Part shown: positions 1,374 through 60,308 of the stretch, one piece after another
Layout: each line of letters starts with the position of its first letter
Position numbering within the stretch: the first letter of the stretch is position 1
Source: Chloroflexota bacterium
Lineage (GTDB): Bacteria > Chloroflexota > Dehalococcoidia > Lucifugimonadales > Australimonadaceae
NCBI GenBank assembly: GCA_009838965.1
Contig: VXQP01000073.1
Coordinates: forward strand, 1-64,000
Direction of reading: 5' to 3'
Length of the DNA stretch: 64,000 nucleotides
The notes under the pieces: generated by a model
The model's input: the letters and a program-made list of their open reading frames with translations, nothing else
The model's database searches: none
Told to the model about the DNA's origin: nothing
Position numbers and translations under genes: made by a program

Positions 1374-1398
1374 GACGAGATAGAGGAGGTAGTTGGCG

Positions 1399-15359: not shown

Positions 15360-15378
15360 ATGCCTCCGTAAACGAAAA

Positions 15379-15406: not shown

Positions 15407-15431
15407 GACGATTCGCTGGTGCCCTTTCGGG

Positions 15432-16556
15432 TCAGTCCTTCTCGTTCTCGAACTTGTAGTTGGGATCCGTGTAGCACTCGGGGGGCATCTCGCTCTTGAG
15501 CCCTCGCTTGCCAAGCTCTGCCTCGAATCGCTCTCGGATCTCCGGCGCCTCCTGGTGGTACTCGTACTGGTCGTCGGAGCGGTCCACCTTCTCACTCATG
15601 GCGCCCGTGAACTGGGGCAGGGGGTGGAATGCGAGATAGCGTCCCGGGTGCTCACCCACGTTGAAGTGCTGGTGGAACCAGCGGTTCGGCGGCACGAAGA
15701 TGCTGCCCTCGTGCCACGGGATGAACACCTTGTCCTGCCCTTCCGGCCACATGACGGAGAACCCTTCGCCGGCAGGGATGACGATGACGTAGGCCGGACC
15801 GTGGCGGTGGCCCTTCTTGTATGTCTTCGCGGGGAAGACGGACATGTGCGCTGTCAGCTCTGAACCGGGGTACTGCACGAACACGGTCGTGCCGCCAGCG
15901 CCGCGGCCCTTGAACGGGACGAGCCTGTCCCACGCGCGCATGTCCGGGAAGAAGTTGCCCACCCAGTACTGGCGCACCATCCCGCGCCCGGACGGGTCGT
16001 TGTCCACGACCACGGCGTCCGAGTAGAACTCGTCGGAAGAGATCAACTCCTCCTGCGGCTGGAGCGGTGTGTTGAAGAAGATGTTCGCGTCCTTCGCGGC
16101 GGACATCGCGATGGGCATGTTGTTGTAGTGCAGCAGCCGCGCGGGCTGACCGCCGGACATGCTCGCGTACTCCACCCAGTAGTTGCCGGGGATGCGGAAC
16201 ATCGCGTGGTCGGTCCACTCGAACGAGTGCTTCTCGCCGCCGTCCTTCCAGATAGTGGTAACACCGCGCCCGCTGAGGACGTAGACGACGTCTTCCAGCG
16301 TCATCTTGAACGGCGGGACGGAGCCGCCTGCAGGGACCTCGGTGATGCGCGCCTCCGAGACGCCCTCCTGACCCGCGAGCTGCAGGAACGCCGCGTTGTG
16401 CCCGCGCTCCTTCCAGTAACCGAGCTCGACGGTGCGTCCGTCCTCGATGTAGTAGTCGCGGTAGATGGGGATGTCCTGCGCCTCCATCCACCGGTCGTAG
16501 AACTGCGGCTTGCGGATGTAGGACTGCTGCTGTGCCTGTGCGGGCGCGGTGGCCAT
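15432..16556 (-). CDS. bicupin protein 1, putative 3-His dioxygenase
   Basis: A 374-residue protein with two cupin barrels. The N-terminal barrel (~80-155) has the shape (EDVVYVLSGRGVTTIW) but no HxH, so it probably binds no metal. The C-terminal barrel (~245-330) has GHRHGPAYVIVIPAGEG and later WFHQHFN. This gives three His and no Glu, the ligand set of gentisate-type ring-cleaving dioxygenases and cysteine dioxygenase. Substrate unknown. The ATG at 16556 is favoured by AGGAGG nine bases upstream. It neighbours an OCD-family gene, as does bicupin 2. It is the most divergent of three bicupins in the window. An isomerase or decarboxylase of the same fold cannot be excluded. Confidence 0.72.
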   Translation of the reverse strand: MATAPAQAQQQSYIRKPQFYDRWMEAQDIPIYRDYYIEDGRTVELGYWKERGHNAAFLQLAGQEGVSEARITEVPAGGSVPPFKMTLEDVVYVLSGRGVTTIWKDGGEKHSFEWTDHAMFRIPGNYWVEYASMSGGQPARLLHYNNMPIAMSAAKDANIFFNTPLQPQEELISSDEFYSDAVVVDNDPSGRGMVRQYWVGNFFPDMRAWDRLVPFKGRGAGGTTVFVQYPGSELTAHMSVFPAKTYKKGHRHGPAYVIVIPAGEGFSVMWPEGQDKVFIPWHEGSIFVPPNRWFHQHFNVGEHPGRYLAFHPLPQFTGAMSEKVDRSDDQYEYHQEAPEIRERFEAELGKRGLKSEMPPECYTDPNYKFENEKD

Positions 16557-38564: not shown

Positions 38565-40466
38565 ATGGACATCGTCAACCCCATCGTCAGGAACCGGATG
38601 CGCGCAGGGCTGGAAGACTCGGACGCCTTCTGGGACAGCGCCGCGCGGGAGCTGCCCTGGCTGAAAACATGGGACACGGTCTTCGAGCACGACTACCCGT
38701 CGTTCCGCTGGTTCGTCGGCGCGCAGACCAACCTTTCCTACATGTGCGTCGACCACCAGAACGCCTCCGGTCGCGGCGGGCACGCGGCGTTCATCTACGC
38801 CAGCGAGCGGGGCGTCCGCCAAGTGCTCACGTACGCCCAACTGCAGCGGCGAGTGGAGCAGGCCGCAGCGGCGCTCCGCGGCATGGGACTGCGCAAGGGC
38901 GACCGGCTCACCATCTACATGCCGAACGCTCTCGAAACCACCATCCTGATGCTGGCGACCGTTCGCATCGGCGCGATCCACTCCATTGTCTTCGCGGGGT
39001 TCAGCGCGCCCGCGCTGGCCGACCGCATCCGCGCCAGCGGCTCGCGGCTCGTCTTCTCCGCTGACGTGGCCTACCGGCGCGGCGGCGAGGTCAACCTCAA
39101 GAGCATCGTGGACGACGCGCTCGCGCTCGGGTGCGACACCGTCGAGCACCAGGTCGTGCTCCTCCGCAACGAGGACGTGCCGATGACGAGCGGACGCGAC
39201 CTCTCATGGGACGAGTTCATCGAGCGCGGCAAGGGCTACAGCGGCGCTATCGAGCCGATGGAGGCGAACGAGCCCGCCTACATCCTTGCAACGTCCGGCA
39301 CGACGGCCACGCCGAAGCTGGCCGTCCACACGCACGGCGGCTACCCGGTCGGCGTCTACAACCAGGGCAAGTGGTGCTTCGGCCTCAACGCCAACGACGT
39401 TTGGTGGGCGACCTCCGACCTCGGCTGGGCCGTCGGCCACTCGTACATCGTCTACGGTCCGCTGCTGTTCGGCGCGACGTCCATCCTCTACGAGGGCGCG
39501 CTCGACTACCCGGGGCCGGACGTCTTCTGGCGCCTCATCGAGGAGTTCGGCATCACGGGCGTCTTCACGTCGCCCACCGCCGTCCGGCTGCTGATGCGGT
39601 TCGGCGAGGAGCCCGCCAAAGGCTTCGACCTCTCGACGCTCATCCGCATCGTCTGCGCCGGCGAGGTGCTGAACCCGCCCGCGTGGGAGTGGCTACAGAA
39701 GCGCGTGCTGGAAGACCGCATCCCCGTCATCGACAACTGGTGGCAGACGGAGACCGGGGCGCCGGTCGTGGGGAACCCGTACGGCATCGCGATGCTGCCG
39801 CAGAAACCGGGCTCCGCCGGCGTGCCGCTGCCCGGAATGGACCTCGCGGTGATGACGCCGGAAGGGCAGATGTGCGAACCGGGCGAGAAAGGCATCCTCG
39901 TGCTGCGGCGTCCGTTCCCGAACCTGACGCCTACACTCTGGGGCGACCCGGAGCGCTACGGCAATGACTACTGGGAGCGCGTGCACGGCGTCTACTTCAC
40001 CGGCGACCTCGCGGAGATAGACGAAGACGGCTACGTCTGGTTCTCGGGCCGCGCAGACGAGGTCATCAAGATCGCGGCGCACCGCCTCGGCACCATCGAG
40101 GTCGAGTCCGCGTTCCTGCGCCACGACGACGTCGCGGAGGCGGGCGTCACCGGACGGCCGGACGAGCTGCGCGGCGAGGTCATATCGTCGTTCATCGTCC
40201 TCAAGGAAGGACGCACCGCGAGCGACCAACTGCGCAAGGAGCTCATCGAGACCGTCCGTCGGGAGCTTGGCCCGTTCGCCGTCATCGGCGAGGTCAACTT
40301 CGTGAAGATGCTGCCCAAGACGCGCAGCGGGAAGATCATGCGCCGCGTGCTGAAGGCGGTGACGCTCGACACCGACCCCGGCGACATCACGACGATAGAG
40401 GACGAGGGCTCCGTCGACGAGGCCCGTGCAGCCTGGCAGGAGATGAAGAGCGAGGTCGGCGGGTAG
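38565..40466 (+). CDS. acetyl-CoA synthetase-like AMP-forming ligase
   Basis: A 633-residue adenylate-forming enzyme of the acetyl/propionyl-CoA synthetase subfamily. The N-terminal ACAS extension has FRWFVGAQTNLSYMCVD. The P-loop-like motif is TSGTTATPKLAVHTHGG, followed by WWATSDLGWAVGHSY, the WWQTETGAP core motif, SGRADEVIKIAAHRLG and the C-terminal catalytic Lys in KTRSGKIMRR, which is the acetylation site in homologues. It converts a short carboxylate, ATP and CoA to the acyl-CoA. It leads an apparent operon with an ADP-ribosylglycohydrolase six bases downstream. Substrate could be acetate, propionate or another small acid. Confidence 0.88.
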   Translation: MDIVNPIVRNRMRAGLEDSDAFWDSAARELPWLKTWDTVFEHDYPSFRWFVGAQTNLSYMCVDHQNASGRGGHAAFIYASERGVRQVLTYAQLQRRVEQAAAALRGMGLRKGDRLTIYMPNALETTILMLATVRIGAIHSIVFAGFSAPALADRIRASGSRLVFSADVAYRRGGEVNLKSIVDDALALGCDTVEHQVVLLRNEDVPMTSGRDLSWDEFIERGKGYSGAIEPMEANEPAYILATSGTTATPKLAVHTHGGYPVGVYNQGKWCFGLNANDVWWATSDLGWAVGHSYIVYGPLLFGATSILYEGALDYPGPDVFWRLIEEFGITGVFTSPTAVRLLMRFGEEPAKGFDLSTLIRIVCAGEVLNPPAWEWLQKRVLEDRIPVIDNWWQTETGAPVVGNPYGIAMLPQKPGSAGVPLPGMDLAVMTPEGQMCEPGEKGILVLRRPFPNLTPTLWGDPERYGNDYWERVHGVYFTGDLAEIDEDGYVWFSGRADEVIKIAAHRLGTIEVESAFLRHDDVAEAGVTGRPDELRGEVISSFIVLKEGRTASDQLRKELIETVRRELGPFAVIGEVNFVKMLPKTRSGKIMRRVLKAVTLDTDPGDITTIEDEGSVDEARAAWQEMKSEVGG

Positions 40467-43072: not shown

Positions 43073-43990
43073 CTACGCGACGAACAGTTCTTCCAGCGTC
43101 CAGCGCCTGCGGATGATCTCCGTCTCATAGAGGTAGTCCACGACTGCGCGCACGGACGCGCCGTGCACATCGAGGCCCTGCGCACGGGGGAAGAGGCCGA
43201 TGCGCCGCAGGTCGCCCGCGAGCAGGCCCTGGTGGACGGAGTCGTCCGGCTCTTCGTCCATATAGAGCGCCGTCGCTTCGTCCATCGCCTTGCAGACGGC
43301 ATCCGCGAGTCCGGCATGCTCCGTGGCGGATTCCTCCTTCATCACAAGCAGCGTGTTGATGGGGAAGACACCCGTCTCCTCGTGGTACCGCTGCAGGAGC
43401 GGGTAAGGGTCGTCCACGAGCAATCGCACGTTGTCGGCCTGTGTCGCATTGCCGCCTGCGACCACGAGCGCGTCGATGTCGCCTGCCGCGAGCCGTGCGT
43501 CGAGGTCCGACATCTGCTCGCGGGCGAAGCGCTCCGGCTTGGGGTAGGGGACGCTGCGCAGCGAGTCGTTCTCGCCCTCGACCCACGTGATGCTGTCCGG
43601 CGCGACGCCGTGATGGTTCGCCAGGATGCCGCGCAGCCACACCGCCGGGTTCGACGCGAACCCCAGTGGCACGCCGACGCGCTTGCCCGCGAGGTCACTT
43701 ATCTCTGAGATACCAGCGCCATTGTTCACCGTGACGCCCGTGAGCGGGAAGAAGAGGTTGGGAAAGATAGGCAACGCGACGAGGGCAACGCCGTTGTCCT
43801 TCGCCACGATGAAGTTGCCGATGGTCAGTTCGCCCACGTCGTACGGGCGCGTCGTCACCATCGCCGGGAAGATGGGCGCGGGCGCGGGGCCGGCGTCGAC
43901 GAGCTCCACGTCCGGATAGTCGATGGCGACGCGCCCGCTGAGCAGGTGTCGTGTGATGAGGCGGTTCCCGACCGCTACGGTGACTGCCAT
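43073..43990 (-). CDS. Pht5-like protein 1 (4,5-dihydroxyphthalate decarboxylase-like)
   Basis: A 305-residue protein of the periplasmic-binding-protein fold, in the group annotated as 4,5-dihydroxyphthalate decarboxylase (Pht5), with PYDVGELTIGNFIVAKDNG, LPIFPNLFF and DLAGKRVGVP as markers. It has no signal peptide, so it is a cytosolic enzyme or sensor rather than a transporter component. Its ATG overlaps the cupin stop by one base (TAATG). It is last in the six-gene minus-strand operon and pairs with a second, diverged copy at 44619. Substrate and even decarboxylase activity are inferred from the family only. Confidence 0.7.
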   Translation of the reverse strand: MAVTVAVGNRLITRHLLSGRVAIDYPDVELVDAGPAPAPIFPAMVTTRPYDVGELTIGNFIVAKDNGVALVALPIFPNLFFPLTGVTVNNGAGISEISDLAGKRVGVPLGFASNPAVWLRGILANHHGVAPDSITWVEGENDSLRSVPYPKPERFAREQMSDLDARLAAGDIDALVVAGGNATQADNVRLLVDDPYPLLQRYHEETGVFPINTLLVMKEESATEHAGLADAVCKAMDEATALYMDEEPDDSVHQGLLAGDLRRIGLFPRAQGLDVHGASVRAVVDYLYETEIIRRRWTLEELFVA

Positions 43991-44577
43991 TACGGCGTTG
44001 TCGTCGTGGCGGAGGAGAATATCGCGCTGCGCCCGCTCTCGACGTCGTAGCGGTGACGTTGCACCGTGTCCAGGTCCATGCTCGTGATTCGGCAGTAGAC
44101 CGTCTCGTCGGTGGGGGAACCCTGCACGCTGTGGATCTCGCCGGGCAGGATGTAGTGGACGTCGCCCGGTCCCTGCTCCATGGTCTGCACCAGCTGGAAC
44201 GACGGCATCTCCACGTCGTCGCCGGTGTGCACGTAGGCGTAGCGGCTCTGGGTGTTGCCGCCGCTCTTGACGCCGTAGGCGACCCAGCAGTAGCCGTGGT
44301 CGTGCGGCGCGGGGCGCTTGATCTCCTGCGGGCCCTGCCGGTACGCAAGGACGACGAAGCCGGGGTTCGGGTGCCCGTACTCGGTGTCCCGGTAGATCTC
44401 GTATGTGCCGTTGTCGTCGCCGAACTTCTCGCTGTTCTCCGGCCAGCCGTTCTCGAACGCGCGCCGCAACAGCGCGGCGACGTGGTGCGCCTGCTGCACG
44501 GAGTCGCGGTGGGTGGCGAACACATCGCGGAGGTCGGCGATGAACTGCTGCTCGGTGTAGACCGCGGTCTGTGTCAT
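43990..44577 (-). CDS. cysteine dioxygenase-like single cupin
   Basis: A 195-residue cupin resembling the cysteine dioxygenase type I superfamily. The core APHDHGYCWVAYGVKSGG gives His-x-His, and HYILPGEIHSVQG gives the third His, so a 3-His iron site is likely. Thiol dioxygenases and some cupin ring-cleaving enzymes share this site. The helical N-terminal third is as in thiol dioxygenases. It sits between two Pht5-like genes, coupled by one base to the downstream copy, which argues for a role in the same pathway rather than cysteine metabolism. Confidence 0.75.
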   Translation of the reverse strand: MTQTAVYTEQQFIADLRDVFATHRDSVQQAHHVAALLRRAFENGWPENSEKFGDDNGTYEIYRDTEYGHPNPGFVVLAYRQGPQEIKRPAPHDHGYCWVAYGVKSGGNTQSRYAYVHTGDDVEMPSFQLVQTMEQGPGDVHYILPGEIHSVQGSPTDETVYCRITSMDLDTVQRHRYDVESGRSAIFSSATTTTP

Positions 44578-44618
44578 GTCGGTTCTCCTCTCTGAAGTCC
44601 TGCCGTAGCGGCGGTAGT

Positions 44619-45587
44619 TTACGTCTCCAGCGTCGTTTCGAAGAAGAGGTCCTCGACGGCGAGGGGTCCCGGGATGAGACCCTGCTCGACCTCGTAGCGG
44701 ATGAACCGTTCGAGGTTGGCGCGGTTCGCCGCAACGCCGGTCGGCCAGGGGTCTGGCCCGAGCACGCGGCGCTCCTCTTCCAGGTAGTGGCGGCCCCACG
44801 TGAGCCTGCTCCAGTTGGGGTCGTCCATGAAGTGCGTCCACTGACGCTTCGCCTGCTCGAAGCCGTCCAGCAGGCTCACCGGCGCCCACGGGTGCTGCTC
44901 CGCAACCTCGGACTTCATCGCCACCACGTGCATGATGGGGTAGAAGCCGTTGCGCTGGTAGTAGCTCACCTCTTCGGCGCGCGGGTCGTCGAACAGCCTG
45001 CCGACCTCGGACGCGCCGTCCAGGTACGGCTGGGGCGGGCGCGGCGACAGGAACGCCGACACCTCGCCTGCGACGAGTGCGTCGCCCAGCCTGCGCCCCC
45101 GGTCCATGCGCTCGATGCTCACGCCGGGCGGCGGGTCGAACGCGACCGGCTCGTCGGAGGTCGTCACCCACGTAACGCCGTTCAGCGGCACGCCGTACTC
45201 GCTGCCGAGGTCGCCCTTCGCAAGCACGGACAGCGTCGTCTGGAACGAGCGTAGCGCTACGCGCTTGCCGATGAGGTCCTTCGGTTCGCGGATGCCGGAC
45301 TGCGTGTTCACGTACATCTGCGACTGGCTGAACAGCCGCCGCGGGAAGACGGGGATGGCCGTCAGCGCCGCACCGCGCGCCTTCGCCATGACGTACGAGC
45401 CGAGCGACAGCTCGCAGACATCGAACTCGCGGTGCAGCAGCATGCGCTCGTGGCGCCTGCCGCCCACGTCGTCCTGCCCGACGATGAGCACGGTGGGGTC
45501 GATGCCCTTGGGACGCACGGTGCCCTCGACCCACGGCACGTGCCTGTCGTAGTGCTCCAGTGCGATGCTCAAGGGAACGTTCGCCAT
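44619..45587 (-). CDS. Pht5-like protein 2 (4,5-dihydroxyphthalate decarboxylase-like)
   Basis: A 322-residue protein closer to described Pht5-type entries than copy 1: EHYDRHVPWVEGTVRPKGID at the N terminus, EFDVCELSLGSYVMAKARG, DLIGKRVALRS, and FYPIMHVVAMK. No signal peptide. It starts directly after the stop of the M29/NicX-like gene with GGAGATATAG as ribosome site. In phthalate degradation Pht5 yields protocatechuate; relatives also act on other ortho-dihydroxy acids. Confidence 0.75.
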   Translation of the reverse strand: MANVPLSIALEHYDRHVPWVEGTVRPKGIDPTVLIVGQDDVGGRRHERMLLHREFDVCELSLGSYVMAKARGAALTAIPVFPRRLFSQSQMYVNTQSGIREPKDLIGKRVALRSFQTTLSVLAKGDLGSEYGVPLNGVTWVTTSDEPVAFDPPPGVSIERMDRGRRLGDALVAGEVSAFLSPRPPQPYLDGASEVGRLFDDPRAEEVSYYQRNGFYPIMHVVAMKSEVAEQHPWAPVSLLDGFEQAKRQWTHFMDDPNWSRLTWGRHYLEEERRVLGPDPWPTGVAANRANLERFIRYEVEQGLIPGPLAVEDLFFETTLET

Positions 45588-46649
45588 CTATATCTCCTCT
45601 CCGTACTCGCGCGCCATCTCCCGGATGTGGGTCTCCTGCAGCAGGGTGGAGCGGCCGTTCTCCCAGAACAGCTCGCCGTCCAGCTCTATCGTCTGGTCGG
45701 AGACGTAGGCGGAGAGGGGAGCGGGCGTCCTGCCGATGTGGAAGTGCATCACGTCCTGGTTGCTCTGCTGTCCGGGGCGTTTCGTAGCCTTGGGATGGAA
45801 CCCGCCGTGGAACGAGTCGAGCGCGTAAGCGGCCTCGGTCCCGTAGCGCGCCTCGCTCACGTCAAGCAGGTGCTGCAGTTGCACGCTCGTCCAGACCGTG
45901 TTGCCGGTCGGGTCATCCTTCTGGTTCTCGCGCGACGGCTCCTCCCGCCACTCGATGCCCTTGAGCGTGTTGTCCCGTATCTCCAGCAGCATCGGGTTGT
46001 GGAACTGCTCGCGGTCCGCCATGCCGGGATGATCGAAAGCGACGACGCCGTTCCCGTCCGCGCTGCCGATGGGCGCATACACCTCACCGGGGAAGACGCG
46101 CTCGGAGCGGCTCATCTCCGCGTCCTGCACGAAGAAGGCGTCCGCAACCTCGCTTCCCGAGGCCACGCGACCCGTAACCTCGGTGCCGCGCGGGCTCGTG
46201 ACGCGGTAGGTCGACGCCTGCGCGGTGCGCTCCTCGATGCGGTGCGCCAGCGCCATGACGAGACGCCAGTCGAAGTGGGCGTGGGGCGTGGTCATGCCCT
46301 CTGGAGCGCGGATGCGGTTGTTGATGCGCACCAGCCCCGCCGCGCCGTTCGCCCGCAGGTGGTCCAGAAGCACGGCGCGGTTCAGGTTGCAGTTCATCAG
46401 CAGCTTGTCGGCGCCCAGCACCGCGCCCGCGACCGGGGCGGGCAGCTCCTCGACGCGGCCCAGCGAGTCTACCCAGAGTGAGTAGGGGACGCCTCCGGCC
46501 TCCGCGATGGCCTGCTCCAGCAGCGCCGCGAGTTCGGTGTCGAGCGCGCCGCGCTCGTTGAGCAGCAGCACCGTCTCGCCCGGTTCGACGGTGGCGCAAT
46601 GCCTGATCAGGTTCGTTACGCCCGTTTGAACGGCTGTGGCGTCGACCAT
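45588..46649 (-). CDS. M29 aminopeptidase / NicX-like protein
   Basis: A 353-residue protein of the group that unites M29 aminopeptidases with 2,5-dihydroxypyridine 5,6-dioxygenase (NicX). Visible parts are GETVLLLNERGALDTELAA at the N terminus, a mid-region VTSPRGTEVTGRV, and C-terminal His clusters DSFHGGFHPKA and VMHFHIG followed by IELDGELFW. These correspond in place to the NicX iron ligands (a His, then His-x-Asp/His). Because the neighbours are decarboxylase- and dioxygenase-like, a ring-opening role is favoured over peptidase. AGGAGGGG precedes the ATG. Confidence 0.68.
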   Translation of the reverse strand: MVDATAVQTGVTNLIRHCATVEPGETVLLLNERGALDTELAALLEQAIAEAGGVPYSLWVDSLGRVEELPAPVAGAVLGADKLLMNCNLNRAVLLDHLRANGAAGLVRINNRIRAPEGMTTPHAHFDWRLVMALAHRIEERTAQASTYRVTSPRGTEVTGRVASGSEVADAFFVQDAEMSRSERVFPGEVYAPIGSADGNGVVAFDHPGMADREQFHNPMLLEIRDNTLKGIEWREEPSRENQKDDPTGNTVWTSVQLQHLLDVSEARYGTEAAYALDSFHGGFHPKATKRPGQQSNQDVMHFHIGRTPAPLSAYVSDQTIELDGELFWENGRSTLLQETHIREMAREYGEEI

Positions 46650-46667
46650 TGCGCCCCTCCTGCCTGT

Positions 46668-47759
46668 CTAGTTGAGCCCGTAGAAGCGCTCCGCGTTGCC
46701 GTGCAGGATGGCCGCCTTGTCCGCGTCGGTCAGCGCCGGGTTCTCGCGGATCTCGGCGATCTCCTCCTTGCACGTCTCGTGGTTGACCTCATGCGGGAAG
46801 TCGGACGAGAAGATGAACGCCTTGTTGCCGGCCACCTTCACCGCGAAGGGAAGCGTCAGTTCGCCGCCCTCGACGCCGACGTAAACCCGGCCCTCGTTAA
46901 CATGCCTCAGGATGTAGTCCGTCACGGACTCGCCGTCCCTCAGCTGCATGAACCGTTGGTTCGGGTCGTACTGGATGTGGCTGTCCCACGAACGCTGGAA
47001 GCGCTCCAGGCAGCCCACGAACCATGCGCAGCCCGCCTCCAGGAACCCGTACTTGGCGTTCGGGTAGCGGTCGAGCACGCCGTTGAACACGATCCCGGCG
47101 AAGTTGACCATCTGGCCGAACGGGTGGCCGAGCGCGTTCACCGGCGCGTAGGGGCTCATGTCGTCCAGCCCCATGTGGTCGTGCACGCCGCCGTGGATAC
47201 CGATGGCGCAGCCGAGGCGGTCGGCTTCCTCGTAGATGGGCCAGTACTTCGGGTCGCCCAGGTGGTTCTGCAACTGGAGAGCGCCGGTGCCGGGGAGCAT
47301 CGCGCCGGAGAAGCCGAGCTCCTTCACGATGCGCCGCAGCTCGACGGCGGCCTCCGCAGGCTCCTGCAGCGGGATGAGCCCCATCGCCTGGAAGCGCGAG
47401 TCCTTGCTGACGTACTCGTCGTACACCCAGTTGTTGTAGGCGCGCGCGAGTTCGATCGCCCAGTCGCGGCTGACCACGCGCCCGAACGCGAGGCCGTTGG
47501 ACGTGTAGAGCACCGTCTTGTCGACGCCCACGTCGTTCAGGAAGTCGATCCAGCCCTCGCGGCCCACGCGCGCGAACGCGCCTTCCGGCAGGAAGTGCCG
47601 GTTCGCCGCGTGCAGGTGGTCGTTGGGCGGGAAGGGCCCGCGCGTCGTCACGAAACTGCGGTCCCGGTAGTCTTCCGGCATCCGCGCCCAGATAGCGTCG
47701 TGGTCCTCGACCAGGTGGCCGTCGCCGTCAACGATGCGCTCGATGTTTTCAGTGACCAT
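46668..47759 (-). CDS. amidohydrolase-2 family protein B
   Basis: A 363-residue TIM-barrel amidohydrolase (ACMSD/resorcylate decarboxylase group). Metal-site elements are DGDGHLVE at the N terminus, GIHGGVHDHMG mid-barrel and FSSDFPHE with the C-terminal Asp. It may hydrolyse or decarboxylate a carboxylated aromatic or ring-cleavage product. It is a diverged duplicate of the preceding gene. AGGAGACG precedes the ATG; the gap to the M29/NicX-like gene is 18 bases. Confidence 0.82.
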   Translation of the reverse strand: MVTENIERIVDGDGHLVEDHDAIWARMPEDYRDRSFVTTRGPFPPNDHLHAANRHFLPEGAFARVGREGWIDFLNDVGVDKTVLYTSNGLAFGRVVSRDWAIELARAYNNWVYDEYVSKDSRFQAMGLIPLQEPAEAAVELRRIVKELGFSGAMLPGTGALQLQNHLGDPKYWPIYEEADRLGCAIGIHGGVHDHMGLDDMSPYAPVNALGHPFGQMVNFAGIVFNGVLDRYPNAKYGFLEAGCAWFVGCLERFQRSWDSHIQYDPNQRFMQLRDGESVTDYILRHVNEGRVYVGVEGGELTLPFAVKVAGNKAFIFSSDFPHEVNHETCKEEIAEIRENPALTDADKAAILHGNAERFYGLN

Positions 47760-47795
47760 GGCTTTCGTCTCCTTGGTGTCTGCCTTCGCTCGTGC

Positions 47796-48896
47796 CTAGT
47801 TCGCCGCCAGCCGGTAGAAGCGGGCCGCGTTGCGGTACATCACCGCTTCCTTGTCCTCGGCGGACATGTCTGCGTTCTCACGCAGTTCGTCCAGCTCCGC
47901 CTTGCAGGTGTTGGCGTCCACCTCGTGCGGGTAGTCGGACGAGAACAGGTACGGCTTGTTGCCGGTGAGCCGCACGGCCTCCGGCAGCGCAAGCTCGTCG
48001 CCCTCGACGCCGACGAAGATGCGGTCCTCGTCGATGTGACGGCAGATGTAGTCGGAGACGCGCTCGCCTTCGCGGATCTGCAGGAAGCGGCCGCGCGGGT
48101 CGTACTGGACGTGCGACGCCCAGGAGCCGTTGAAGCGCTCCATGCAGGTGAGCAGCCACGCCGCGCCAGCCTCCAGGAAGCCGATGCGGACGCCCGGGTA
48201 CTTGTCGAACACGCCGTTGAAGATGATGCCGGCGAACGCCACCATCTGTCCCATCGGGTGGCCGAGCGCGTTGATGGGGGCGTACGGGCTCATGTCGTCC
48301 ATCAGGAAGCCCTCGTGCGCGCCGCCGTGGATGCCGAGAGCGCAGCCGAGACGCTCAGCCTCTGCGTAGACGGGCCAGAACTTGCTGTCGCCGAGGTGCG
48401 GCTGCTGCGCGCCCGTGGACGGCAGCATCGCGCCGACGAAGCCGAGGTCCTGCACGATGCGGCGCAGCTCCTCGACCGCCGCGTCCGGCTCCTGCAGTGG
48501 CAGCAGGCCCATCGCCTGGAAGCGGTCGCCGCGCCTGAGATAGGTGTCGTACACCCAGTTGTTGTACGCCTGCGCGAGCATGACGGCCCAGTCGCGGCTG
48601 ACGATCTTCCCGAAGCCGAGTCCGCTCGTGGTGTAGAGCACCGTCGAGTCCACGCCGACCTCGTCGAGGAACTCCATCCAGCCGTCCGGTCCCACGTTCG
48701 CGAATGCGCCCGGAGGCGTGATGTGCCGGTTCGCCGAGTGGAGGTGGTCGATGGGCGGGAAGGGGTTACGCTCCGATCGCGCCTCGCCGAAACTCTTGCC
48801 CTTGAACTCGTCCGGCATGTACGAAACGATGCCGGCGATGTCCTCCATGATGTGGCCGTCGCCGTCGATGATGCGTTCCAGGTTTGCCGTAGCCAT
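47796..48896 (-). CDS. amidohydrolase-2 family protein A
   Basis: A 366-residue paralogue of the next gene in the operon, first of six. It has the same metal-site elements: DGDGHIMED, LGIHGGAHEGFLMDD and FSSDYPHEVD. Insertions and the substrate-facing loop (SERNPFPPIDHLHSANRH) are shared with copy B, so the two may act on related substrates or form a hetero-oligomer. A good promoter lies upstream (TTGCCG-N17-TACAAT). GAGGCAGG precedes the ATG. Confidence 0.82.
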   Translation of the reverse strand: MATANLERIIDGDGHIMEDIAGIVSYMPDEFKGKSFGEARSERNPFPPIDHLHSANRHITPPGAFANVGPDGWMEFLDEVGVDSTVLYTTSGLGFGKIVSRDWAVMLAQAYNNWVYDTYLRRGDRFQAMGLLPLQEPDAAVEELRRIVQDLGFVGAMLPSTGAQQPHLGDSKFWPVYAEAERLGCALGIHGGAHEGFLMDDMSPYAPINALGHPMGQMVAFAGIIFNGVFDKYPGVRIGFLEAGAAWLLTCMERFNGSWASHVQYDPRGRFLQIREGERVSDYICRHIDEDRIFVGVEGDELALPEAVRLTGNKPYLFSSDYPHEVDANTCKAELDELRENADMSAEDKEAVMYRNAARFYRLAAN

Positions 48897-49000: not shown

Positions 49001-49046
49001 AAGGCGCATCCTGCGCCCACTGGCGCACGTCCACGGGAGGCTTACG

Positions 49047-50285
49047 ATGGTAACGAGAACCGCAGGTCTCGCTGAATGGCAAGAGCCGGAAGGCATGAAC
49101 AAGGCAGGCTTCGGCTTCTGGAAGACGCCGAAGTCCCAATACGACCTCTTCATCGAGTCCCAGGGCATCGACATCCACCGCAACATCGGCGTCCGCCGCA
49201 TCCAGGACCTGCCGCTCAAGCCGTGGAAGCGGCTCGGCGGCAACGGCGTCGCCATTCAGCTGCTCGGCACCGAGCACCTCTGGGGCATGTACGTCGTCGA
49301 GGTCCCCGGCGCGGGCGCCCTCAACCCTGAGAAGCACATGTACGAGGAGATCTATTACGTCGCGGAGGGCAGGGGCTCCACCGAGGTCTGGCAGGAGAGC
49401 AACCCCAACAAGAAGCAGGTCTTCGAGTGGAGTGCGGGCTCGCTCTTCGGCATCCCCATGAACGCCATGCACCGCGTCGTCAACGCCACCTCCAGCCCGG
49501 CGCTCCTCCTCGCCGCCACCACCGCGCCCAACATGGTCAACCTCGTCCGCGACCCCTCCTTCGTCCTCAACAACCCCTACGAGTTCACAAACCTCTTCGA
49601 CGCCGAGGACGACTACTTCAAGCCCGTCGAGGACATCTTCGCCGACCCCGTCCGCGGCCTCGCGATGCGCCGCACGAACGTCATCCCGGACATCGTCAAC
49701 TGCCACCTCCCGCGCGACAACCGCCGCTCCTTCAGCTACCGGCGCGTGGAGCCGCACATGGCCGGCGCGAACTTCTACATGAAGATAGGCCAGTACGAGA
49801 CCGGCCAGTACTCCAAGGCGCACAAGCACTCGTCCGGCGCCATCCTGGTCTGCATCAAGGGCAAGGGCTACAGCGTCACCTGGCCTGACAGGCTTGGCGA
49901 GCGCCCCTTCGAGGCGGGCCTCGGCGACGAGGTGAAGCGGCAGGACTACGAGCCCGTCGGCATGATCAGCGCCGCACCCATGACCGGCGACTGGTTCCAC
50001 CAGCACTTCGGCACGTCGCCCAACGGAATCCGCTTCCTCATCTTCGACGGCCCCTACGGTCCGGGGATGCGCAACGGCGCCGCTCCCGGCTCCGAGTCCC
50101 GCGACGGCGGGGCGCAGGACACCCGCGACGGCGGCAGGGCCATCGCCTACCCGGACCAGGACCCCGCCATCCGCGCCGAGTACGAGCGCATGATCGGCCT
50201 GGAGGGGCTGGTGAGCACCATGCCGGAGTGGGCCTACACCGACTACACCCCGCCCCCCGGCGCCGCGGACGTCGGCGGCTTCTAG
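49047..50285 (+). CDS. bicupin protein 2, putative 3-His dioxygenase
   Basis: A 412-residue double-cupin protein. The N-terminal barrel (~95-165) holds MYEEIYYVAEGRGSTEVW but lacks a His triad. The C-terminal barrel (~255-340) has KAHKHSSGAILVCIKGKG and DWFHQHF, giving a 3-His iron site of gentisate-dioxygenase type. The tail ends with STMPEWAYTDYTPPPGAAD, a motif shared with bicupin 3 (STMPEVVYTEAGAK). The true start is this ATG, not any of the much longer open frame upstream, which is antisense to the amidohydrolases. It is divergently arranged with the six-gene operon and convergent with a cyclodeaminase gene. Confidence 0.75.
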   Translation: MVTRTAGLAEWQEPEGMNKAGFGFWKTPKSQYDLFIESQGIDIHRNIGVRRIQDLPLKPWKRLGGNGVAIQLLGTEHLWGMYVVEVPGAGALNPEKHMYEEIYYVAEGRGSTEVWQESNPNKKQVFEWSAGSLFGIPMNAMHRVVNATSSPALLLAATTAPNMVNLVRDPSFVLNNPYEFTNLFDAEDDYFKPVEDIFADPVRGLAMRRTNVIPDIVNCHLPRDNRRSFSYRRVEPHMAGANFYMKIGQYETGQYSKAHKHSSGAILVCIKGKGYSVTWPDRLGERPFEAGLGDEVKRQDYEPVGMISAAPMTGDWFHQHFGTSPNGIRFLIFDGPYGPGMRNGAAPGSESRDGGAQDTRDGGRAIAYPDQDPAIRAEYERMIGLEGLVSTMPEWAYTDYTPPPGAADVGGF

Positions 50286-50306
50286 TCGCTGACAACGAAC
50301 GTAAAG

Positions 50307-50332
50307 AGAGGGCGGCTGGCCAGCCGCCCTCT
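50307..50332. terminator. perfect palindrome between bicupin 2 and cyclodeaminase 2
   Basis: A 26-base perfect inverted repeat with arms AGAGGGCGGCTGG, 21 bases after the bicupin 2 stop and 25 bases before the stop of the convergent cyclodeaminase gene. It would act for both genes. The U-tract is short on either strand. Confidence 0.75.
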
Positions 50333-50357
50333 TCGCTTGAGTCCCGTAACTCGTGCC

Positions 50358-51470
50358 CTAGTCGCGGATGTCCTGCAGGAACCACTCCGTCGGCAGTTCG
50401 CGTCCGAGGCCCTGCTCCTTCGCCTTGCGGTAGACGACCTCGCCGACCGCCGCGAACTGCAGCCCCTGGTTGCCGGAGTTCAGGTAGAGCGTGATCTGGT
50501 CCCGCGACGTGCGGCTCACCCTGCCGCTCGCGAGGTCGTTGAACGTCGGCGTCTCGTCGGTCCCCCCTGCGTTCACCCGCGCCTCGCGCAGCCTGGCGGG
50601 GAGGCGCTGCTTCTGCTCGTCCGTCCCCCCGATGTAGTCGCCGCGGTTGTACCCGTCGCCCATGCTCCGCACGTCCTCGTTGCTGGGCCGCGAGTGCGCC
50701 ACGCCCTGCTTGACGGTGACGTCCGCCCGTTCGAACACCCGCGCGTCCAGCTCGCCGCGCACGTCGGTCACGTGCTGCCCCGGCGAGAGCCAGTCTCCCT
50801 TCAGCGCGGGCTCCATCGCGTTCGTGCACGCGGAGACGATGTCCACGTCCTCCACCGCCGCCTCCGGCGTGTCGACCGCGCGCACCTCGAGCTCCAGCTT
50901 CGCCGACATCTCCTCCGCGTACCGCTCACGGTTCGCCTTCGTGGGACTGAACACCTTCACGCTGCGGATGTCGCGTACCGCCGCGAACGCCTCCAAGTAC
51001 GTCCGCGCCATCCCGCCGGAGCCGAGCATCCCCACGGTCTGCGAGTCCGTGCGCGACAGGTACCGCACGCCGAGGCCCGCTCCGCCGCCCACGCGCATGT
51101 GCTGCAGGATGCCGTCGTTGATCATCGCCAGCGGCTCGCCGTCGCGCGTGCTGAACAGCATGATCAGACCGCAGTACGTGCCCGGCTCCATGCAGTACTT
51201 CTCTTCCTTCCAATAGCCGTGCTCGTCGCGCGGCCAGTAGAGGATGTCCGACTTCATCCGGATAGCGAACACGCCCAGCGCGTCGCTCGCGCCCTCCATC
51301 GTGCCCCAGCGGTAGTAGCCGTCCGGCCGCTGCGCCGGCATGTACAGGTCGATGCGGGGCCGGTGCACGGACTCGCCGGTCGGCAGCCCGCGGAACGCGT
51401 AGTCCTGCGCGTCTATGCACTCGTCCATCGGCAGCAGCCGCTCCACGGTCGCGTTGTCTATCAACAGCAT
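50358..51470 (-). CDS. ornithine cyclodeaminase/mu-crystallin family protein 2
   Basis: A 370-residue paralogue of the gene at 13312, the same length and matching from MLLIDNATV to the C-terminal FLQDIRD. The shared HRPRIDLYMP, YYRWGTMEGAS and MLGSGGMARTYLEAF segments are conserved. The middle insert (SNEDVRSMGDGYNRGDYIGG) differs, so substrate may differ. Probably an NAD(P)-dependent imine- or amino-acid-acting enzyme. It lies 15 bases downstream of the Gfo/Idh gene on the same strand and is probably co-transcribed. Confidence 0.82.
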   Translation of the reverse strand: MLLIDNATVERLLPMDECIDAQDYAFRGLPTGESVHRPRIDLYMPAQRPDGYYRWGTMEGASDALGVFAIRMKSDILYWPRDEHGYWKEEKYCMEPGTYCGLIMLFSTRDGEPLAMINDGILQHMRVGGGAGLGVRYLSRTDSQTVGMLGSGGMARTYLEAFAAVRDIRSVKVFSPTKANRERYAEEMSAKLELEVRAVDTPEAAVEDVDIVSACTNAMEPALKGDWLSPGQHVTDVRGELDARVFERADVTVKQGVAHSRPSNEDVRSMGDGYNRGDYIGGTDEQKQRLPARLREARVNAGGTDETPTFNDLASGRVSRTSRDQITLYLNSGNQGLQFAAVGEVVYRKAKEQGLGRELPTEWFLQDIRD

Positions 51471-51485: not shown

Positions 51486-52697
51486 CTAGTCCACCGTCGG
51501 GGTCTGGTGCTGGAGGAACATCTCCTTGCGCTGCTCGCCGGACTGTTCGATCGCCAGCAGCAGTTCGATCGTGGCGTTGCCCCAGCGCGCGTTGGCGGGC
51601 AGGGGACGGTCGGTCGTTATGGCGTCGTAGAACGTGTTGAGCCGTCCGTCGCGGCCGTCCTCCACCGTCACGAGCGGGATCTCCGAACGCTCCTTGTTGC
51701 CGTAGACGGTGAGCCCGCCCGGGGAGAGCCGCACGTCGGCGTCGTCGAAGCTCACCATGAGCGGCCCGCCGAGCAGCCAGCCCGCGCTCGACGGGCCGGT
51801 CGGCGGCTCCATGGGATCGGAACGACCGAGGCCGTATCGTTCAGCACGCGCCGCTGCATCCTCCCAATCAGGGTCGGTGGCTTCGGCCTGTTCGCGGCGG
51901 GCAGCAGCGTGTTTCTCGGGGTCGGGGAAGATGCCTTCCTTTCCAACGCCGTGCATGAACTCGCGCGAGTCCCAATGGTCGTATCCGCTGTAGACGGCGG
52001 TGCAGAACACGCCGTTCTCGAACTCCAGGTACGCGGCGTGCGCGCCCGGCACGCGGCGGGCGGGGTCCCACGCGGCAGACGTGCCGCGCACGCTCCGCAC
52101 CATGCCGCCGCCTATCGTGCGGATGATGTCGAACTGGTGCGGCCCCTGCCGCCAGAGGATGCCGCCGCCGGGCCCCGGCGTCAACTCCTCGTGGGAGCGC
52201 GGACGGTACAGCCAGTCCTGGTAGCGCCAGTGGTGCATCATCCGAAGCTCGCCGAACTCGCCTGTGCGCACCATCTCCCGGATGCGGAGCACGCGCGGCT
52301 CGAAGCTGTGCTTCACGTTCACCCCCAGCAGCACGCCCTGCCGTTCCGCCGACTCCGCAAGCGCCGTGCCCTCTTCCACGTTGATCGTCATCGGCTTCTC
52401 GATGAGCACGTGCTTGCCGTACGACATCGCCAGTTCGCAGTGCTGGGAGTGCAGTATGGTCGGCGTCGCGATGTAGACGAGATCGATGCGCGGGTCCTTG
52501 CACATCTCCTCAGCGCTCGTGTGGGTCGCCGCGTCCGGGAAGTCCTGCGCGAAGCGGCCGAGAATCTCCGTGTCGAGGTCCGCCGCCGCGATGATCTTGA
52601 AGCGCGGGTTGAACGCCATCCGCGGGACCATGGCGACCGCCGCGCCGCCCAGCCCGATGATGCCGATGCCCAGCACGGTCGAGTTCTCAGTGGTCAT
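51486..52697 (-). CDS. Gfo/Idh/MocA oxidoreductase, Pht4-like
   Basis: A 403-residue NAD(P)-dependent dehydrogenase. N-terminal Rossmann fold GIGIIGLGGAAVAMVPRM; the GKHVLIEKPM motif has the conserved Lys-Pro. The C-terminal domain has YQDWLYRPRSHEELTP and GGGILWRQGPHQFDIIR, with His in the PHQ active-site position. The WLYRPR and GPHQ elements are like phthalate 4,5-cis-dihydrodiol dehydrogenase (Pht4). The other candidate is a LigC-type semialdehyde dehydrogenase of the same family. The ATG has GGAGGGCG before it. It is upstream of cyclodeaminase 2 and divergent from the LigB-like gene. Confidence 0.75.
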   Translation of the reverse strand: MTTENSTVLGIGIIGLGGAAVAMVPRMAFNPRFKIIAAADLDTEILGRFAQDFPDAATHTSAEEMCKDPRIDLVYIATPTILHSQHCELAMSYGKHVLIEKPMTINVEEGTALAESAERQGVLLGVNVKHSFEPRVLRIREMVRTGEFGELRMMHHWRYQDWLYRPRSHEELTPGPGGGILWRQGPHQFDIIRTIGGGMVRSVRGTSAAWDPARRVPGAHAAYLEFENGVFCTAVYSGYDHWDSREFMHGVGKEGIFPDPEKHAAARREQAEATDPDWEDAAARAERYGLGRSDPMEPPTGPSSAGWLLGGPLMVSFDDADVRLSPGGLTVYGNKERSEIPLVTVEDGRDGRLNTFYDAITTDRPLPANARWGNATIELLLAIEQSGEQRKEMFLQHQTPTVD

Positions 52698-52746
52698 GCG
52701 CCCTCCTCCAGCGAGGCTCCGGATGCGCGGAGCATAGCACCTGCCT

Positions 52747-52775
52747 TTGCCTTGTGCCGCCCTGCGTCCTATGCT
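52747..52775 (+). promoter_or_regulatory. promoter of the LigB-like gene
   Basis: TTGCCT (52747-52752), 17-base spacer, TATGCT (52770-52775). This gives a ~48-base leader with AGGAGG before the ATG at 52830. A TATGCT on the minus strand (52736-52731) could serve the divergent Pht4-like gene. Confidence 0.6.
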
Positions 52776-52829
52776 TGCGCCACAAGCAGACCACCACCCG
52801 CGCGGCGGGAAGCCGCACAGGAGGCGAAC

Positions 52830-53786
52830 ATGGCAAGCATCGTCCTCGGCATCGGCAGTTCGCACGGCCCCTCGATACAGACCGACCCCGTGGGCTGGCC
52901 ACGGCTCGGCGATGCCGACACCCGTGACCCGCGGTTCGACTACCAGTCGCTGCTCGCCAATGCGCCGTCCGACATCGAGGCGCAACTGACGCCGGAGAAG
53001 CAGCGCGAGCGCTACGAGGCAGCCCACGCGGCCATCGGCAAGCTGCGCAGCGCGCTCGACGAGGCGAAGCCCGACGTGCTCGTCGTCATCAGCAACCCTC
53101 ACCGGGTCTGGGCCGACGAGACGCGCGCTGTCTTCGCCGTCATGCGCGCCGAGTCGCTGCCGGTCGCCGAGCGCCAGGACTTCGACCCCGACGCGCGCTT
53201 CCGCACGAACGAGGAGCGCCGCGCGCCCGTCATCAACGACCGCCCCGGCCAGCCGCAACTCGCCGGGCACCTCATTACGGCACTCAACGACGACGGCTTC
53301 GACGTCGGCTGCGGCGACGGCGTGCGCGACGGCCACGCGCTGGACGACGCGTTCGCGTACGCCCACCACTACGTCATGCCGGATGAGACCTTGCCGGTCG
53401 TGCCGTTCATGGTCAGCCGCTACCTGCCGTACCAGGCGAGCGCCGCCCGCTGCTACGCGATGGGCGGAGCGCTGCGCCGCGCCATCGAGTCCTGGGACGC
53501 CGACGCCCGTGTCGCGCTCATGGCGTCCGGCGGCCTCAGCCACCAGATCATCGACGAGGAGCTGGACCGGGGCGTTATCGCCGCGCTGCAGAGCGGCAAC
53601 GCGCAGGCGCTCGGGGCACTCGAGCGCGACCGGCTGAACGGCGCTCCCGGCACGCCGGAGATACTGAACTGGGTGACGGTCGCGGGCGCGATGTCCCCCG
53701 GCACCATGACGCTGCTCGACTACCTCCCGTGCTACCGCTCGATGGCGGGCACCGGCCACGGCCTCACCTTCGGCGTCTGGGGGTAG
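52830..53786 (+). CDS. LigB-family extradiol ring-cleavage dioxygenase
   Basis: A 318-residue class III extradiol dioxygenase catalytic subunit, the family of protocatechuate 4,5-dioxygenase and gallate dioxygenase. The first iron His is in GIGSSHGPSIQ at residue 11, the second in VVISNPHRVW near residue 90, and the general-base-type His in ASGGLSHQI near residue 235. YAHHYVM and VVPFMVSRYLPYQ match LigB beta-strand regions. It lacks a separate LigA alpha subunit nearby. It would cut protocatechuate or a similar catechol acid to the semialdehyde, feeding LigI. A PPOX-like gene follows 21 bases on. Confidence 0.85.
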   Translation: MASIVLGIGSSHGPSIQTDPVGWPRLGDADTRDPRFDYQSLLANAPSDIEAQLTPEKQRERYEAAHAAIGKLRSALDEAKPDVLVVISNPHRVWADETRAVFAVMRAESLPVAERQDFDPDARFRTNEERRAPVINDRPGQPQLAGHLITALNDDGFDVGCGDGVRDGHALDDAFAYAHHYVMPDETLPVVPFMVSRYLPYQASAARCYAMGGALRRAIESWDADARVALMASGGLSHQIIDEELDRGVIAALQSGNAQALGALERDRLNGAPGTPEILNWVTVAGAMSPGTMTLLDYLPCYRSMAGTGHGLTFGVWG

Positions 53787-53807: not shown

Positions 53808-54233
53808 TTGGAACTCTCAGAAGCGCTCCCGTTCATCGAAGCCAACCACTTCGCACTCGTCAGCACCGTCGGCGCAGCCGGACACGCGCAGGCCACCGTC
53901 GTCAGCGCAGGGTTGCTGGACGAGCAGGTGGCATTCGTCTCGCGCGCCGACACGGTCAAGGTGCGGAACGTCCGGCAGAGCGGCCACTGCTCGGTCACCC
54001 TCATCAACCCCGACAACCGCCGCTACGTGACGGTGCAGGGCGCGGCTGCGGTGCACGGCTGGGACAACACGGACGAAGCCGCGCTGCTCGACCTGCTGCG
54101 GCGCGCGTACGGCGCGGCGGGGCGTCCGTCCGACAGATGGGACGACTTCGACGCCTCGATGCGCGAGGAGCAGCGGACCGTCGTGCTCGTCACGCCGGAG
54201 CGCGTCTACGGCAGCCTGCGCCAGCGCGCCTAG
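53808..54233 (+). CDS. PPOX-class (F420/FMN) split-barrel protein
   Basis: A 141-residue pyridoxamine-phosphate-oxidase-fold protein of the F420-dependent class. The pattern FALVSTVGAAGHAQATVV, then RADTVKVRNVRQSGHCSV, then VTVQGAAAVHG, follows the flavin-binding barrel. Such proteins reduce activated double bonds or bind flavin/F420. The start is a TTG with AAAGGAA upstream. It is probably co-transcribed with the LigB-like gene. It overlaps bicupin 3 convergently by four bases. Confidence 0.8.
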   Translation: MELSEALPFIEANHFALVSTVGAAGHAQATVVSAGLLDEQVAFVSRADTVKVRNVRQSGHCSVTLINPDNRRYVTVQGAAAVHGWDNTDEAALLDLLRRAYGAAGRPSDRWDDFDASMREEQRTVVLVTPERVYGSLRQRA

Positions 54234-55492
54234 TCGGACATGACCTCCATCTTCGCGCCCGCCTCGGTGTAGACCACCTCGGGCATCGTCGAGGCCACGC
54301 CGTTCTGCCGCAGCTTTTCCTCGAAGTGCTGCCGCACGTACGGGTCCTCCAGGTGGTAGGGGATCGCGTTGCCGCCGTCCGTGATGTCGGCGTGCTGTCT
54401 GATGAGCTCCCCCTCCTCCGCGAAGTCGTTGGCGCGGTTCCGGCTCGACTCCGGGTTGCCCGGCATCGGGCCCGTGTAGTTGAAGACGCGGAACGGCTCT
54501 TTCCCGACTGCAAAATGCTGGTGGAACCAGTTGGCCGGACCGGGCGCGGCGCTGATGAGCCCGCCGGGCACGTACTCCTGTATCTTGACCAGGTCGCCTT
54601 TGCCGTTCTGCCAAGGCGTCAGGCCGCCCTCGCTGCTCGGCCACGTCCACGAGAAGCCCTCGCCCTTGCAGCAGACGAGCACCGCGCCCGACGCATGTGC
54701 GTGCGCCTTCGCGTAACGCCCGCTGGGATACTCGGCGAGCCATCCCTGGATCATCGTGTTGCCCACCTGGTTCGGAGCGACCCACCGGAAACCGGGGCCC
54801 CGGTTGTTGTCGAGCGGCAGATAGGCGTTCTGGATGTCCGGCAGCAGGTTGGACGTCACCATGGCGCGCCCGCGCACCGGCTGCGGCTCGATCTCGTCGT
54901 TCGGGTTCCAGAAGTCCTCCAGGTTCCCGCCGAGCCGGTCGTCGAAGTTGAACTCGCAGTTGAACACGAAGTTCATGTTCTGGAACGCGTTGATCGTCCG
55001 GGGCGCGGAGTTGACCGCGAGAAGCAGCGCAGGCGCCGACGACGCGTTGATGATGCGGAAGTTGGCATTCAGCGGTATCGCGAACAGGCTCCACGGCTGC
55101 CACTCGAACGCGGTCATCGCCGTATCGCCGTTCCGCCACACCTCAGTGCTGCCACGACCCTCGAGCACGATGTAGCGCTCTTCGTACATCTGGCGCTGAG
55201 GGTGCAGCGCGCCGCGTGGGGGAACCTCGACCACGAACATGCCGGTCGCATTGTTCGTGCCCGTCACCTGGATGTACGTGCCCTTGCCGCCGACCCGCTT
55301 CCATTCGGCGCGCGGCAGTTCGCGAGAGTCGCGCACACCCACGCCCTTGAAGACAGGGATGCCCTCCGACCGCTGGAACTTCTCCCACGCCGTCGCCAGC
55401 CGCACCGTGTAGCTCGTGCTGCCGCCTTCGCCTTCCTTATGCCATCCGGCGCGCTGATTGCCGGTCGGTTCCACGTACCTCGGTTCCGTCAT
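54230..55492 (-). CDS. bicupin protein 3, putative 3-His dioxygenase
   Basis: A 420-residue double cupin closely related to bicupin 2 (shared MYEE then GRGSTEVW; WFHQHF; STMPE tail). The C-terminal barrel has KAHAHASGAVLVCCKGEG and NWFHQHFAVG, again three His. The N-terminal barrel has none (QRQMYEERYIV). GAGGAG before the ATG at 55492 sets the start; further upstream the frame runs through a palindromic repeat. Its divergent and convergent neighbours are dioxygenase-type genes, consistent with a ring-opening role. Substrate unknown. Confidence 0.75.
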   Translation of the reverse strand: MTEPRYVEPTGNQRAGWHKEGEGGSTSYTVRLATAWEKFQRSEGIPVFKGVGVRDSRELPRAEWKRVGGKGTYIQVTGTNNATGMFVVEVPPRGALHPQRQMYEERYIVLEGRGSTEVWRNGDTAMTAFEWQPWSLFAIPLNANFRIINASSAPALLLAVNSAPRTINAFQNMNFVFNCEFNFDDRLGGNLEDFWNPNDEIEPQPVRGRAMVTSNLLPDIQNAYLPLDNNRGPGFRWVAPNQVGNTMIQGWLAEYPSGRYAKAHAHASGAVLVCCKGEGFSWTWPSSEGGLTPWQNGKGDLVKIQEYVPGGLISAAPGPANWFHQHFAVGKEPFRVFNYTGPMPGNPESSRNRANDFAEEGELIRQHADITDGGNAIPYHLEDPYVRQHFEEKLRQNGVASTMPEVVYTEAGAKMEVMSD

Positions 55493-59525: not shown

Positions 59526-60308
59526 CTACGTCTCCATCAGCCCGCGCTCGGACGGGAAGAGCGCCAGCAAGCCACCGTCCACGTTGATGTTCTCCCCCGT
59601 GACGAACGCCGACATCGGGGAGGCCAGGAATAGCACCGCTCCCGCTTGGTCGGACGGCTGGCCCCACCTGCCGAGCGGTATGTTCTTCGGCTTCGCTGCA
59701 CGCGGCGCTGTGCTGCCGCCGGGCGTCGTGCCACGGTTGTCGCCGGTCTGCGTCGGCGTGATGGAGTTCACGCGGATGCCGTAAGGGGCTAGCTGTATCG
59801 CCATTGTGCGCGTCATCTGCAGCACTGCGCCCTTCGACGCAGAGTACGCGATGAACCCCGCCTTGCCACGGTGACCGGTCGTCGAGGCCGTGTTCACGAT
59901 GGCGCCGCCCTCGCCCTGCGCCACCATCCGACGCGCTGCCTGCTGGCTGCACAGCATCGTCCCGTCCATGATGACGGACTGCACCCACTTCCACTTCTCG
60001 TACTCGATGTCCAGCAGTCCCGCCTCGTTGTTGACGGCGGCGTTGTTCACCAGGATGTCGACGCGCCCGTACTCCTCATCGACACGTTGGAACAGGTCTT
60101 CCACCTGCTCGGGGGACGAGATGTCCGAGCTGAAGCCTATCGCCTCGCCGCCTTCCTCGCGGACCGATGCGGCCGCCACGTCGGCGCGGTCGTCGAGGAA
60201 GTCCACGCATACGATCTTCGCGCCCTCCCGCGCCAGCGTCCGACAGATCTCGCCGCCGATGTTCGGCCCACTGCCCGTTACGACCGCAACCTTGCCTTCC
60301 AAAAGCAT
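59526..60308 (-). CDS. short-chain dehydrogenase/reductase
   Basis: A 260-residue SDR. The cofactor-binding motif TGSGPNIGGEI is near the N terminus, NNAAVNN near residue 90, and the catalytic Ser/Tyr/Lys in STTGHRGKAGFIAYSASK. The C-terminal tail FVTGENINVDGG is standard. It oxidises or reduces a hydroxyl group of an unidentified substrate. It lies between the GMC/VOC pair (convergent) and the LigJ-like gene (divergent). Confidence 0.92.
   Translation of the reverse strand: MLLEGKVAVVTGSGPNIGGEICRTLAREGAKIVCVDFLDDRADVAAASVREEGGEAIGFSSDISSPEQVEDLFQRVDEEYGRVDILVNNAAVNNEAGLLDIEYEKWKWVQSVIMDGTMLCSQQAARRMVAQGEGGAIVNTASTTGHRGKAGFIAYSASKGAVLQMTRTMAIQLAPYGIRVNSITPTQTGDNRGTTPGGSTAPRAAKPKNIPLGRWGQPSDQAGAVLFLASPMSAFVTGENINVDGGLLALFPSERGLMET

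Follow-up and report, generated by a model that had tools for sequence, protein, structure and literature searches.

A conserved six-gene operon of SAR202 bacteria encoding two amidohydrolase-family proteins that look like relatives of two-metal oxygenases

The window analysed here, a stretch of 64,000 nucleotides from a Chloroflexota bacterium of the Dehalococcoidia (assembly GCA_009838965.1, contig VXQP01000073.1, positions 1 to 64,000 of the forward strand), contains six open reading frames (ORFs) on the minus strand, running from 48896 to 43073 in the order AH1-AH2-M29L-SBPa-CUP-SBPb, an arrangement that is complete in seven SAR202 genomes of two genera. The products of the first two genes look, from their sequences, like relatives of the recently found class of two-metal oxygenases that includes AibH2, PtmU3 and SfbO (hereafter AROs). 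It is tentatively proposed that the genes are transcribed together as a single unit and serve to degrade, aerobically, an aromatic or heteroaromatic compound bearing carboxyl and hydroxyl groups, with AH1 and AH2 acting as a paired oxygenase, a proposal that we regard as a serious possibility falling somewhat short of probable. From the gene order and its conservation, the promoter, the homologies, the predicted folds and the conserved metal ligands, we infer the catalytic roles, the metal content, the association of AH1 with AH2, the order of the steps and the substrate. The features of the operon are the following.

48958-48930, minus strand: sigma-70-like promoter TTGCCG-17-TACAAT, conserved in the host genome (G000) and in G003, G004 and G005
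47796-48896, minus strand: AH1, PF04909 protein with the six ARO metal ligands (Pfam, ligand alignment)
46668-47759, minus strand: AH2, tandem PF04909 paralogue with the six ligands of AH1, and Asn at the position of AH1 D327
45588-46649, minus strand: M29L, protein of predicted M29/NicX fold with H281, H285, H302 and H304 (widened profile, predicted fold)
44619-45587, minus strand: SBPa, Pht5-like protein, a relative of 4,5-dihydroxyphthalate decarboxylase (match to 9JP7)
43990-44577, minus strand: CUP, single-domain cupin of predicted thiol-dioxygenase (CDO/MDO) fold (predicted fold, His conservation)
43073-43990, minus strand: SBPb, second, diverged Pht5-like protein (match to 9JP7)

In transcription order the genes are separated by 36, 18, 0 and 41 bases, CUP and SBPb overlapping by one base. 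This layout, and the promoter at 48958, are as the original prediction had described them, and the two diverged duplications that it had pointed out are equally evident, AH1 and AH2 being about 63% identical and SBPa and SBPb about 27-30%. Only two promoter-like sites are found between 42000 and 50000 (mean of 0.5 in shuffled sequences), the second of which faces the divergent double-cupin gene CUP2. Four genomes of the genus keep the operon promoter, at differing distances from the start codon, which argues for its function.

The host contig is 163 kb long and belongs to a genome of 3.0 Mb (96.6% complete), whose closest named relatives are Dehalococcoidia/SAR202 metagenome assemblies, including SAR202 bin16 MPMJ01, which PMC6946804 describes as a sponge symbiont of group VII that has 62 Rieske oxygenases. 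Conservation of the gene order in relatives had been set beforehand as the test of the prediction of a catabolic operon, and it was found when 59 genomes were compared with that of the host: the complete order is present in G000, G001, G003, G004 and G005, from one genus, and in G008 and G013, from a second one, and the copy in G002 is interrupted by a contig end. In G006 and G012, from a further genus, M29L-SBPa-CUP is kept with an ornithine cyclodeaminase-family gene in front, and in G014, from yet another, M29L-CUP. Within this same set, close homologues of M29L are confined to the host's own family. All six genes are under purifying selection, with ratios of non-synonymous to synonymous substitution (dN/dS) of 0.03-0.40, highest for CUP. 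Two of the copies in these metagenome-assembled genomes are broken, AH1 of G003 by a frameshift (L032:6988-8104) and AH2 of G004 by an in-frame TGA (L033:10502-11590), through either assembly error or decay.

AH1 and AH2 are members of PF04909 (104 and 81 bits in Pfam). When they were searched as single sequences, ACMSD, the dinuclear oxygenases and other decarboxylases were returned together; with the AH family profile, the four best solved structures were the AROs 8SM9, 8SM8, 8SM7 and 8SM6 (SfbO), with E-values from 5.7e-29 to 9.4e-25 and three of the matches full length, ACMSD ranking below them with a partial match (E 6.3e-22). The metal ligands of AibH2 are Asp25, His27, His211, Glu265, Asp337 and His340 (PMC7782822), to which D13, H15, H190, E242, D321 and H324 correspond; none of these six residues varies in AH1 or AH2 across the two genera. 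Compared with ACMSD, the pair has DxH instead of the HxH metal motif, a DxxH motif, and Glu242 in the column of the catalytic His228, which makes an ACMSD-type decarboxylase unlikely; the original view of both proteins as decarboxylases is thus not supported, since their ligand set is that of the dinuclear oxygenases.

In a tree of the genome's paralogues and four solved AROs, AH1 and AH2 fall in a clade with the AROs (support 0.96), as sisters whose split predates the divergence of the two genera. They are adjacent paralogues, as are the two components of AibH1H2, and the presence of Asp in AH1 (D327) and Asn in AH2 resembles, in a manner that depends on the alignment, the division between catalytic AibH2 and non-catalytic AibH1; AH1 is more likely to be the catalytic subunit. 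Elsewhere, the gene for a Halobellus AH homologue overlaps that for a 125-residue Rieske protein, as in the AibG arrangement, and the host genome holds a second AH pair (C4:50572-51660 and 51855-52913) with a Pht5-like gene 61 bases further on, so that the association of AH with Pht5-like genes recurs within it.

M29L had no match in Pfam, NCBIfam or the Protein Data Bank (PDB) when searched as a single sequence, nor did the profile of its close family. Once the profile was widened with remote homologues, NicX (7CN3) was the sole significant PDB match (E 7.4e-19), and the predicted structure (pLDDT 85.9) has NicX 7CN3 as its best fold match (Z 22.6, root-mean-square deviation 3.9, 300 residues aligned), followed by M29 aminopeptidases (Z 16-18). 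The iron ligands of NicX are His265, Ser302, His318 and Asp320 (PMC7910607). In three alignments made by different methods, these positions are occupied in M29L by S279, H304, P311 and S313, so that ring cleavage by M29L is not established. The kinship with NicX proposed originally therefore stands, NicX being the closest relative in sequence and in fold, but catalysis by its iron site is not supported, because H265, H318 and D320 are gone and S302 is replaced by His. In their stead M29L has a new set of histidines: H281, H285, H302 and H304 do not vary among M29L sequences and are shared by a paralogue of 29% identity, which suggests a rearranged metal site.

With the M29 aminopeptidases (AmpS, AmpT, PepS), M29L shares the fold and the metal residues H302 and, in close orthologues, E189. 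However, remote M29-like homologues of the class have a Glu and a His-x-Asp pair in the columns of S279, P311 and S313, where M29L has Ser, Pro and Ser; these peptidase ligands are thus lost, and the conserved peptidase site that had been named as a finding contrary to the original prediction is absent. The 29% identical M29-like paralogue (L025:7684-8715) adjoins the M29L-SBPa-CUP cluster of G006 and has His in the column of NicX H318. Beyond these genomes, the pattern SWHxGxHP...MHFH of M29L is found in a 24% identical hypothetical protein of a Leisingera sp. M658 plasmid (L049:8001-9104), whose gene adjoins one for the alpha subunit of a Rieske oxygenase and another for a protein of the carboxymuconolactone decarboxylase family. 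The M29L subfamily is well suited to finding out whether a metal site of another kind can be housed in the NicX/M29 fold.

SBPa matches the solved 4,5-dihydroxyphthalate decarboxylase 9JP7 over its full length (E 2.6e-56, residues 4-322), and SBPb does so over residues 3-251 (E 8.8e-24), which bears out the decarboxylase homology originally recognised in both. Inspection revealed no evident signal sequence in either protein, as in Pht5, and neither an ABC permease nor an ABC ATPase is encoded near them; both are therefore better read as cytoplasmic enzymes, and a role as transport binding proteins was set aside on these grounds and on the strength of the 9JP7 matches. Unlike the Pht5 system, there are two diverged copies here and no adjoining Rieske phthalate dioxygenase. 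The plasmid matches of SBPa included no operon of a matching kind.

These homologies bear on an alternative, suggested originally, in which all the PF04909 and Pht5-like proteins would be decarboxylases, followed by ring opening of the NicX and cupin types, as in picolinate or phthalate breakdown. The catabolic clusters for these compounds share with the operon the logic of decarboxylase plus ring-opening oxygenase, and in known pic clusters a decarboxylase of PF04909 (PicC) is accompanied by a homologue of NicX. The alternative also draws on the Pht5-like matches and on the significant matches of the AH proteins to ACMSD and other decarboxylases. However, Glu in place of His228, the DxH and DxxH motifs of AH1 and AH2, and the absence of the NicX iron ligands from M29L leave it unlikely.

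The predicted structure of CUP (pLDDT 90.8) has the fold of the thiol dioxygenases (174 residues, Z about 17), its closest folds being mercaptosuccinate dioxygenase (Z 17.4) and 3-mercaptopropionate dioxygenase. Its HxH motif and third histidine (His92, His94 and His149) are invariant, in agreement with the CDO-like, three-histidine cupin of the original prediction. CUP resembles the thiol dioxygenases (CDO, MDO and mercaptosuccinate dioxygenase) in the fold and in these histidines, but not in the catalytic Ser-His-Tyr triad, whose columns, in an alignment with one CDO-family protein, hold Tyr161-Arg163-Thr165, with Arg163 at the position of the His; nor does it match CDO_I in Pfam. Weak and partial matches of the cupin profile to ZinT were taken as chance.

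The fold, together with the organosulfur use reported for SAR202 in work cited by PMC6946804, could point to an operon for the oxidation of an organosulfur compound, in which CUP would be a thiol dioxygenase. Lacking the triad, CUP gives no indication of a thiol substrate, and taking into account also the missing CDO_I match and the aromatic type of the neighbouring genes, this reading is considered very improbable.

Under the proposal of aromatic acid breakdown, AH1 and AH2 would pair up, in a way comparable to AibH1H2, into an oxygenase of the amidohydrolase fold, activating O2 at an Mn/Fe or Fe2 site and hydroxylating the substrate. One or two ring carboxylates would be removed in the cytoplasm by SBPa and SBPb, and ring opening and the subsequent oxidation would fall to M29L, with its rearranged, His-rich metal site, and to CUP and/or CUP2. 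The products may then be led into central metabolism by the acyl-CoA synthetase-family protein ACS, the SDR protein and the oxidoreductase GFO, encoded nearby, through reactions that would include oxidation and CoA activation.

Several observations weigh against this proposal. Apart from the replaced iron ligands of M29L and the replaced triad of CUP, the same set of His, Asp and Glu residues that AH1 and AH2 carry holds a single metal in AibH1 (PMC7782822). The residue two positions after the His of DxxH, which is acidic in AibH2 (D342) and a reported mark of the dinuclear site, is Val in both AH1 and AH2; D327, a possible substitute in AH1 alone, aligns with D342 only across a one-residue insertion, and AH2 has Asn there. 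Furthermore, the small Rieske ferredoxin that is an accessory partner of the AROs, and by which they were found, is not adjacent: neither the operon nor its flanks contain a gene for a Rieske ferredoxin or a reductase, and electrons would therefore have to come from a donor encoded elsewhere. The host genome has six small Rieske ORFs at other places.

It could be argued from these same points that AH1 and AH2 bind one metal and, without redox chemistry, catalyse a late hydrolysis or hydration in the pathway, of a lactone or a cyclic amide for instance, O2 being used only by CUP, CUP2 or M29L. The amidohydrolase superfamily is mostly mononuclear and non-redox (PMC10811679), and the single metal of AibH1, the missing acidic residue and the lack of a Rieske partner all lean in this direction. 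However, the best structure matches and the tree position of both proteins are with the dinuclear oxygenases, and the partner of AibH1 is itself an oxygenase. This explanation is considered rather unlikely, if less so than the one in which the pair are decarboxylases.

As a whole, the original interpretation is supported as regards the catabolic operon and the relationships to Pht5, NicX and CDO, and is not supported as regards the AH decarboxylases and catalysis by the NicX iron site. A pyridine-like substrate, which it had also suggested, is not specifically indicated, its basis being only the distant homology to NicX. Its statement that no described pathway has this gene set agrees with our literature search, which found none within its incomplete coverage, and to our knowledge the six-gene set and its order match no described pathway. 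The operon combines parts of known families in an undescribed way, and it includes proteins that differ in their active sites from the families under which they would be filed.

AH1 and AH2 have many relatives in the host genome. A search with the AH profile gave 83 matching places, corresponding to about 75 distinct PF04909 proteins, of which 63 have all six ligands of the dinuclear oxygenases, 41 of these 63 with Asp at the following acidic position; five paralogues are of the canonical HxH/His228 types. The 75 or so AH paralogues (example loci C4:50572-52913 and C94:31848-34016) are about as numerous as the 71 Rieske genes of the genome. AH members are likewise numerous in other genomes of the family, up to at least about 25 among the matches listed. 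Ligand conservation alone does not prove that these paralogues are oxygenases. Of 72 AH genes, about 15 have a Rieske gene at a distance of 2.5 kb or less, against about 10 expected from a rough estimate of gene density, an association so weak that it was not used as evidence.

It is possible, if doubtful, that the operon stands for a pathway not described before, whose carboxylated ring substrate is attacked by a paired AH oxygenase dependent on Mn/Fe or Fe2 and by an enzyme of the NicX fold with a relocated, all-His metal site. AH1 and AH2 would then be among some 60 oxygenase candidates of the amidohydrolase fold in a genome of 3 Mb, an oxidative radiation equal in size to the known Rieske one. 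Expanded oxygenase families are believed to let SAR202 bacteria oxidise recalcitrant organic matter in the sea. If AH1, AH2 and their relatives were two-metal oxygenases, many genes now labelled "amidohydrolase" would be oxidative, and SAR202 genomes would be read differently. In Saw et al. 2020 and the other SAR202 literature searched, with incomplete coverage, neither "amidohydrolase" nor COG2159 appears.

Around the operon, CUP2, OCD, GFO and ACS are syntenic with it in both genera. The neighbouring genes considered are:

49041-50285, plus strand: CUP2, divergent double-cupin protein, weakly similar to gentisate/aminosalicylate dioxygenases, adjoining AH1 in both genera
50358-51470, minus strand: OCD, ornithine cyclodeaminase/mu-crystallin family, syntenic in both genera
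51486-52676, minus strand: GFO, Gfo/Idh/MocA oxidoreductase, syntenic in both genera
38565-40466, plus strand: ACS, acyl-CoA synthetase family, located 3' of the operon in both genera
59526-60302, minus strand: SDR, with a close homologue between ACS and SBPb in G013

At 655-3392, genes for an RraA-like aldolase, a 4-oxalomesaconate tautomerase (NF033377, above the NCBIfam cut-off) and an amidohydrolase stand in a row. Together with a LigB-type dioxygenase also encoded in the window, they make up pieces of a lower pathway of the protocatechuate/gallate type, which renders an aromatic acid substrate plausible. An OCD-family gene lies near a diverged double-cupin gene at two places, 13312-16556 and 49041-51470, and a third double-cupin-like protein is encoded at 54230-55492.

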